Shown here: positions 30,646 through 33,112 of the stretch, one piece after another | Position numbering within the stretch: the first letter of the stretch is position 1 | How the letters are laid out: every line of letters starts with the position of its first letter | Assembly (NCBI GenBank): GCA_002162795.1 | Contig: MAAY01000042.1 | Span: forward strand, 1 to 64,000 | Reading direction: 5' to 3' | Origin: Rhodobacterales bacterium 56_14_T64 | GTDB taxonomy: Bacteria > Pseudomonadota > Alphaproteobacteria > Rhodobacterales > Rhodobacteraceae | DNA: 64,000 bases | Program-made: the position numbers and the translations under genes | Notes under the pieces: model-generated | Database searches by the model: none | Told to the model about the DNA's origin: nothing | What the model saw: only the letters and a program-made list of their open reading frames with translations

Positions 30646-31164
30646 ATGAAACGTAATATACTGATCCATCCCGACCCCCGCCTGAAGAAGGTTTGCGCGC
30701 CAGTGAGTGATATCACTGACGAGTTGCGTAAGCTTGCTGATGACATGCTGGAAACCATGTATGATGCGCCGGGCATTGGTCTGGCCGCGCCGCAGCTTGG
30801 TATCACCAACCGGCTGATCGTGTTGGATTGCGTCAAGGAAGAGGGCGAAGTGGCGCGCCCTTTGGTGATGTTCAATCCGGTTGTTGTGGCCTCGTCCGAC
30901 GAGACCAATATGTACGATGAAGGCTGCCTGTCGATCCCCGATCAATACGGTGAGGTGACCCGCCCCAAGGTGGTGGATGTTGAGTGGATGGATCGCGACG
31001 GCAAGGCACAACGTGAGACCTTTGATAATCTGTGGGCGACCTGCGTTCAGCACGAGATAGACCATCTGCAAGGCAAACTGTTCATTGATTATCTGAAACC
31101 GCTGCGACGCCAGATGATCACCCGCAAGATGCAGAAACTGAAACGCGAAATGGCGCGCGGGTGA
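30646..31164 (+). CDS. def: Peptide deformylase (canonical)
   Basis: GIGLAAPQ, EGCLS, QHEIDH all intact. Confidence 0.97.
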   Translation: MKRNILIHPDPRLKKVCAPVSDITDELRKLADDMLETMYDAPGIGLAAPQLGITNRLIVLDCVKEEGEVARPLVMFNPVVVASSDETNMYDEGCLSIPDQYGEVTRPKVVDVEWMDRDGKAQRETFDNLWATCVQHEIDHLQGKLFIDYLKPLRRQMITRKMQKLKREMARG

Positions 31165-31658
31165 GTGTTCGTCCGATCCTGATCTGGCCTGATGCTCGGT
31201 TGTCGCAACGCTGCGAACCGGTTGGGCCCGAGGTTCTGGATGAACTGATCGCGGATATGTTCGACACTATGTACGGCGCGCAAGGTCGGGGGCTGGCAGC
31301 TCCGCAGATTGGCGTGATGAAGCGCCTTTTTGTGATGGATTGCACTTGGAAGGAAGGTGCGAGGTCGCCGATGGTGATGATCAACCCAACCATCATGGCT
31401 GCCGAGCGCCTTCCGGTTCCGGCTGAGGAAGGCTGTTTGTCGATTCCCGGCGTGTTGCTGTCGGTGGAACGTCCCAAGGCGGTGACCGTGCAATGGACCG
31501 CCGCCGAGGGCGACATTCACATGGCAGATTTCGACGGGTTTGAGGCGCGTTGCATTCAGCATGAGTTTGATCATCTGAACGGTACCGTGACATTTGACCA
31601 TCTTTCGGGCGCTGAGCGCGCCAAGGCCGAGGCCGAATTTCTGGAGACACGACAATGA
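31161..31658 (+). CDS. Peptide deformylase paralog 2
   Basis: GRGLAAPQ, EGCLS, QHEFDH; 4-bp overlap with first def. Confidence 0.93.
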   Translation: MSVRPILIWPDARLSQRCEPVGPEVLDELIADMFDTMYGAQGRGLAAPQIGVMKRLFVMDCTWKEGARSPMVMINPTIMAAERLPVPAEEGCLSIPGVLLSVERPKAVTVQWTAAEGDIHMADFDGFEARCIQHEFDHLNGTVTFDHLSGAERAKAEAEFLETRQ

Positions 31659-32152
31659 CTACCCGTACCTGCCTGCCGTGGCCCGACAAGCGCCTGCGGA
31701 CCAAAGCCGAAGACGTGACTGAAATCACCGACGAGATCCGTGAGATCTGGCAGGATATGGTGGATACCATGGAGGCTATGCCTGGTGTTGGGCTGGGCGC
31801 GCCGCAGATTGGTGTGATGCTGCGGCTTGCGGTTGTTGATGGATCACGTGAGCGGGGCCGCGCAGTGAAGATGGCCAACCCCGAAGTTCTGCATGCCTCG
31901 ATCGAGTTGCGCGAACATTATGAGGCCAGTCCGAACTTGCCGGGGGTCTCGGCTACGGTCAAACGGCCGCGGGCGGTGACAGTGCGGTTCATGAACGAAG
32001 CGGGGCAGATTGATCGGCGCGATTTTGTTGGGGTTGAAGCCACCAGCGTGCAGCACCAGATCGATCATTTGAACGGTCGGATGTATTTTGATCGTTTGAG
32101 CAAGGTTAAGCGCGACATGTTGTTGCGGAAGGCCAAGAAGCTAGGCGGCTGA
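31655..32152 (+). CDS. Peptide deformylase-like paralog 3, predicted inactive
   Basis: GVGLGAPQ; EGCLS replaced by EASPN; QHEIDH replaced by QHQIDH. Confidence 0.9.
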   Translation: MTTRTCLPWPDKRLRTKAEDVTEITDEIREIWQDMVDTMEAMPGVGLGAPQIGVMLRLAVVDGSRERGRAVKMANPEVLHASIELREHYEASPNLPGVSATVKRPRAVTVRFMNEAGQIDRRDFVGVEATSVQHQIDHLNGRMYFDRLSKVKRDMLLRKAKKLGG

Positions 32153-32206: not shown

Positions 32207-33112
32207 ATGCGCGTGATATTTATGGGAACGCCTGAGTTCTCGGTTCCAGTCCTTGAAGCGCTGGTTGAGGCTGGGCACGAAATTGCTGCGGTCTATTGTC
32301 AGCCACCACGTCCGGCGGGACGAGGTAAGAAGGACCGACCGACTCCGGTTCATGCCCGCGCCGTTGAGTTGGGATTGGACGTGCGTCATCCTGTGTCGCT
32401 GAAGACACCCGAGGCGCAAGGCGAGTTTGCTGCGCTGGACGCGGATATTGCGGTGGTGGTGGCCTACGGGTTGATCCTGCCACAGGTTATTCTGGATGCA
32501 CCCGCCAAGGGGTGTTTGAACATCCACGCCAGCCTGTTGCCGCGTTGGCGTGGTGCTGCACCGATCCACCGCGCGATCATGGCTGGGGATGATGAGACCG
32601 GCATTTGCATCATGCAGATGGAGGCCGGGCTGGACACTGGTCCGGTGCTGTTGCGGGAAGGCACGGCCATTGGTGACGAGGAAACCACCGCGCAACTGCA
32701 TGACCGGTTGTCAGAGATGGGGGCGTCGTTGATCGTGACCGCTTTGCGCCATCTGGATGGGCTCTCGCCTGATGTGCAGCCTGACGATGGCGTCACCTAT
32801 GCCAGCAAGATCGACAAGGCTGAGGCGCGCATTGACTGGAACCGCACTGCGGTTGAGGTGGATCGGCAAATCCGCGGGTTGTCGCCATTTCCGGGGGCCT
32901 GGAGCGAGTTGGGCGGGCAGCGTGTCAAAGTGCTGGCCTCGCGTTTGGCTGAAGGGCAGGGAAACGCCGGTGAAGTGTTGGATGAAAAGCTCACCATTGC
33001 CTGTGGTTCAGGGGCTGTTGAACTGCTGCGCTTGCAACGGGCGGGTAAGGGCGCGCAGGATCGCGAAGTATTCTTGCGTGGCTTTGCGGTGAAGCCGGGC
33101 GATAGTTTCTGA
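32207..33112 (+). CDS. fmt: Methionyl-tRNA formyltransferase
   Basis: [41 protein letters not shown]. Confidence 0.97.

Follow-up and report, generated by a model that had tools for sequence, protein, structure and literature searches.

The stretch of DNA analysed here (the window, 64,000 nucleotides of contig MAAY01000042.1 from Rhodobacterales bacterium 56_14_T64) carries three genes of the peptide deformylase (PDF) family, which are the only PDF-family genes in the whole genome. The genes and the features of the third of them are as follows:

30646-31164, forward strand: def1, 172 aa, a canonical peptide deformylase with GIGLAAPQ, EGCLS and QHEIDH intact and a basic C-terminal helix
31161-31658, forward strand: def2, 165 aa, GTG start, a second deformylase with GRGLAAPQ, EGCLS and QHEFDH intact, Arg at position 44 (E. 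coli numbering) and a C-terminal helix devoid of basic ribosome-binding residues
31655-32152, forward strand: def3, 165 aa, ATG start, a putative pseudo-deformylase with a substituted active site
31784-31807, forward strand: motif 1 of def3, GVGLGAPQ, starting at residue 44 and kept, as read from the sequence
31922-31936, forward strand: altered motif 2 of def3, EASPN, with Cys90Ser, Leu91Pro and Ser92Asn (E. coli numbering), from sequence and conservation
32051-32068, forward strand: altered motif 3 of def3, QHQIDH, with Glu133Gln and both metal-binding His kept, from sequence and conservation
32102-32149, forward strand: predicted basic C-terminal helix of def3, residues 150-165, from AF2 secondary structure and K/R at 150, 157 and 160
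32207-33112, forward strand: fmt, methionyl-tRNA formyltransferase, ATG at 32207, the next gene after def3

The coordinates of the open reading frames bear out the original prediction of a head-to-tail def triplet with 4-bp overlaps (GTGA between def1 and def2, ATGA between def2 and def3) and fmt after it, and motifs 2 and 3 are intact in the first two genes, as had also been claimed. In Def3, the predicted replacements of Cys by Ser and of Glu by Gln lie exactly at the codons agt (31928-31930) and cag (32057-32059), and the protein does retain motif 1 (PGVGLGAPQ in its fuller context), both zinc-binding His residues and its full length, matching PF01327 over the full length with 137 bits (cut-off 22.8). 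Against TIGR00079 it scored 121 bits, which is above the equivalog threshold (103.95). Its closest named relatives include Zongyanglinia, Leisingera, Ruegeria and Parasedimentitalea, which places the genome in the roseobacter group of the Rhodobacteraceae.

To place these substitutions, we aligned 261 Def1, 102 Def2 and 233 distinct Def3 sequences with 25 Def sequences from outside the family and with E. coli Def, the reference sequence of which was verified at residues C90, L91, Q50, H132, E133 and H136. Cysteine is present at position 90 in none of the 233 Def3 sequences, 232 of which have Ser there; Leu91 is replaced by Pro in all 233 and Cys129 by Ser in 231 (both from alignment columns), and position 92 is always substituted (Asn in 223, Cys in nine and His in one). 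Glu133 is replaced by Gln, giving HQxxH, in 232 of 233, the exception being the frameshifted copy of genome G451, while the catalytic Glu is found in 260 of 261 Def1 and 101 of 102 Def2 sequences. Motif 2 reads E[AG]SP[NC] in 230 of 233 Def3 sequences, within an ungapped region of the alignment flanked by the invariant Glu88 and a conserved Leu/Ile-Pro-Gly. The first 140 Def3 sequences that we read had Ser in 139 cases and Pro in one at the Cys position, and Gln in all 139 that were readable at the Glu position. Retained in Def3 are Gly43, Gly45, Gln50 (233/233), Glu88, His132 and His136; among the 232 full-length copies, H132, H136, Q133, P91, Q50 and E88 are invariant over a summed tree length of about 40 substitutions per site. 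No intermediates with a partial Def3 signature were found. The original prediction named intact EGCLS/HEIDH in close relatives as evidence to the contrary; none of the 233 Def3 sequences has them, and the substitutions are fixed family-wide. L91P, S92N and C129S, which are just as fixed, were absent from its list of substitutions, and it did not note that the ribosome-binding helix is retained. Asn, Cys and His at position 92 (e.g., L138, L100 and L116) are all possible metal ligands, so a shifted third ligand is possible.

In active deformylases, Cys90 is a metal ligand, the backbone NH of Leu91 together with Gln50 stabilises the reaction intermediate, and Glu133 acts as the general acid/base. 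As proline offers no NH at position 91, three separate catalytic elements (the Cys ligand, the Leu91 NH and Glu133) have been lost in Def3. In Salmonella PDF, Cys90 was reported to be required for activity and PDF-C90S fails in vivo, while replacement of the second Cys by Ser about halved the activity (PMC7683392).

Searching one genome per genus of Rhodobacteraceae, we found Def3 in about 209 of the 249 genera and no Def3 in about 40, counting by eye and assigning best matches weaker than about 1e-39 to Def1. A second set of 296 Rhodobacteraceae genomes yielded about 288 with a full-length Def3, one with a frameshifted copy and seven with none. A single canonical Def was found in 23 genomes. 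Outside the family, scores with a Def3 profile never exceeded about 195 bits, the level of an ordinary Def1, in either a class sample (362 of 367 searched) or a phylum sample (284 of 299), true Def3 proteins scoring at least 235 bits; the best 25 loci read outside the family all have EGCLS and QHExDH, and Def3 was not found in other Pseudomonadota families among those sampled. A 15-base degenerate pattern for HQIDH, applied across the class, was far too unspecific and was discarded. All tblastn matches in phages were below 60% identity, their motifs not being read; three profile matches came from viral contigs, two with intact EGCLS/QHExDH and a third missed by the motif scan; and the sole plasmid match above 60% lay on a 1.6-Mb replicon from Pseudorhodobacter, a genus that belongs to the Rhodobacterales. 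One locus of a record titled Nocardioides marinus (L211, JAHVJD010000009.1) carries a Rhodobacteraceae def cluster and is likely mislabelled.

Def3 forms one clade with a support of 100/100 in a tree of 125 rows, in which two unusually diverged Def1 sequences (L154_Def1 of G173 and L135_Def1 of G208) also sit on long branches. The stem of the Def3 clade is long (0.97 changes per column), and its attachment is weakly supported, the bootstrap not having settled. The sequences indicate that the Def3 substitutions arose once, in an early ancestor of the family, after one ancient Def-type duplication. The arrangement seen in the window is common: the start of def3 and the stop of the upstream PDF gene share 4 bp in 159 of the 228 measured loci, and fmt directly follows def3 in 222 of 232. 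Mapped onto an approximate tree of 155 genomes built from Def1+Fmt, presence or absence changes 12 times for Def3 and 36 times for Def2; the dead copy has thus been kept more stably than the motif-intact Def2, although the several losses among its 12 changes mean that Def3 is not essential to the family. Rare genomes have Def1 and Def2, with Def3 not found (G119 and G427; L341, L343).

Pairwise NG86 comparisons (12,315 pairs, which are not independent; for Def2, 2,206 pairs) gave median dN/dS values of 0.235 for Def3, 0.19 for Def1 and 0.40 for Def2, and 92 non-overlapping pairs gave 0.256 for Def3 and 0.157 for Def1. Mean amino-acid identity across the triplet genomes is 72% for Def3, 75% for Def1 and 53% for Def2. 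Selection on Def3 is hence purifying, and frameshifts are rare. It is hardly credible that Def3 is a degenerating copy heading for loss: the genera without it, the frameshift in the G451 copy, the remnants seen in G158 and the lack of an intact Def3 in G137 are what such a process would leave, but purifying selection, the fixed derived signature and a count of state changes lower than that of Def2 refute this for the family as a whole. The frameshifted def3 (L342, G451:C4:59014-59509) lies in an otherwise complete def1-def2-def3 cluster and is either a recent loss or a sequencing error. Fixed substitutions and purifying selection support the view, put forward in the original prediction, of a maintained pseudo-enzyme and not a decaying copy; judged from its residues, Def3 is a conserved protein of apparently inactive type.

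We then compared the conservation of the pocket, the positions of which were picked on the basis of the E. coli structure. It is 0.874 in Def3 and 0.892 in the active Def1, as against 0.722 for the remainder of Def3, a value as high as that of the Def3 pocket being reached in three of 5000 permutations. This conservation argues for a working pocket, beyond mere retention of the fold. An AF2 model of Def3 (pLDDT 95.9, pTM 0.91) superimposes on solved type 1B PDFs, including E. coli Def, with a TM of about 0.92 (Foldseek; rmsd of 1.3-1.6 A to the E. coli entries), and has its C-terminal helix at residues 150-164. A recent study describes contacts of E. coli Def with uL22 and with 23S rRNA that are made by basic residues, K150, K157 and K160 among them (PMC12690207). 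Residues at 150, 157 and 160 are all basic in 257 of 261 Def1, 231 of 232 Def3 and 25 of 25 outside Def sequences, and in none of 102 Def2 sequences. The helix residues of Def3 could nonetheless be conserved for a non-ribosomal reason.

Canonical type 1B PDFs function as monomers. Were Def3 to heterodimerise with Def1 (or Def2) in a structural or regulatory capacity, without binding a ligand of its own, one might expect what is seen at the loci that we read, where def3 nearly always lies near def1, is translationally coupled through the 4-bp overlap and has kept its (predicted) fold. A purely structural role would have no need of an invariant pocket, however, and Def2 is excluded as an obligatory partner because 134 of the 232 Def3 loci lack it; given also the monomeric state of the canonical enzymes, we regard a partner subunit as unlikely. 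It is about equally improbable that the metal site has shifted, with residue 92 as the third ligand, making Def3 a sensor of metal, redox state or NO, or a slow hydrolase with another substrate. Both His residues are invariant, position 92 is confined to Asn (222), Cys (nine) and His (one) among the 232 full-length copies after about eight changes on an approximate tree, and with C90S and C129S both active-site Cys residues are gone, including the thiol targeted by NO in the Salmonella enzyme (PMC7683392), but Asn coordinates metals poorly and the change of Glu to Gln takes away the general base.

That Def3 should still be a deformylase, working through rewired residues, seems very unlikely to us. 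The binding pocket is retained, and type 3 PDFs of T. brucei with altered motifs have been reported to be active, according to passages of the same study (PMC12690207), which counts against reading Def3 as a dead deformylase; yet in Def3 the ligand Cys, the oxyanion NH donor and the catalytic Glu have all been replaced, and C90S alone was reported to abolish the function of Salmonella PDF (PMC7683392).

The reading that we favour, tentatively and at somewhat less than an even chance, is that Def3 is a non-hydrolytic protein that docks at the tunnel exit, where it would tune Def1 by binding formyl-Met N-termini or by competing either for them or for the place of docking. Def3 would not hydrolyse formyl-Met; its C-terminal helix would dock at the uL22 site of the ribosomal tunnel exit, and the docked protein would either bind and shield the formyl-Met N-terminus or compete with Def1 and MAP for it or for the docking site. 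In this way Def3 would set the timing of action, and the choice of nascent chains, for Def1 (and MAP), and the translational coupling of def3 to the other PDF genes, with fmt after them, would match the doses. A more specific version, which we find somewhat doubtful, is that Def3 might be a dedicated, non-hydrolytic reader of formyl-Met N-termini at the tunnel exit; it may have a rewired metal site, and throughout the family it would either postpone the deformylation of nascent chains or decide which of them undergo it.

Among known systems, the type 1B PDFs (E. coli Def; PF01327/TIGR00079) share with Def3 the fold, motif 1, both metal-binding His residues, Gln50, Glu88 and the basic C-terminal helix, whereas Cys90, Leu91, Ser92, Cys129 and Glu133 are all replaced in Def3 and its loop at E. 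coli positions 64-67 is shorter. Like Def3, type 3 PDFs are accessory homologues with substitutions in catalytic motifs, thought to be weakly active or inactive; such PDFs outside the Rhodobacterales, with inactive accessory ones in S. aureus and in S. pneumoniae, are described in two papers, the second of which is a 2017 paper on Vp16 PDF (PMC12690207, PMC5591237). Def3 instead branches with alphaproteobacterial Def, in a tree that includes no type 3 reference sequences; its gene belongs to a def cluster that is followed by fmt, and it has one fixed set of substitutions across the family.

The triplet was correctly described in the original prediction, but it was missed that clustered PDFs in Rhodobacterales had already been published: passages of Lamberioux et al. 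(2025) report them in 98.1% of Rhodobacterales reference species, with three PDFs in 62.5% of those clustered genomes, and call the rationale of the clustering "elusive" (PMC12690207). As described in these passages, the clustered PDFs are the same genes as the triplet in the window, and the main-text passages contain no mention that we could find of a fixed pseudo-enzyme status of one cluster member (PMC12690207). Likewise, we found no report in the open-access literature on the third Rhodobacterales PDF as a fixed pseudo-enzyme, or on any pseudo-deformylase, and the main text of the R. sphaeroides Tn-seq paper mentions neither deformylase nor fmt. Thus, while PDF clustering is already known, the fixation of the third gene as a pseudo-enzyme appears to be new, and Def3 offers a direct handle on this published, unexplained clustering.

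Nearly all bacteria deformylate the N-termini of their proteins, and this step is a target of antibiotics. A probably dead PDF that is presumably co-expressed and has been kept family-wide with its pocket and a putative ribosome anchor would imply an unrecognised layer of control over nascent-chain processing. Furthermore, NCBIfam calls Def3 "peptide deformylase" via the TIGR00079 equivalog cut-off; since Def3 passes this cut-off, automatic annotation probably miscounts active deformylases.

In 101 of 102 sequences of Def2, the fastest evolving of the three paralogues, position 44 (E. coli numbering) is Arg; going by its sequence, Def2 may be a deformylase that acts away from the ribosome.
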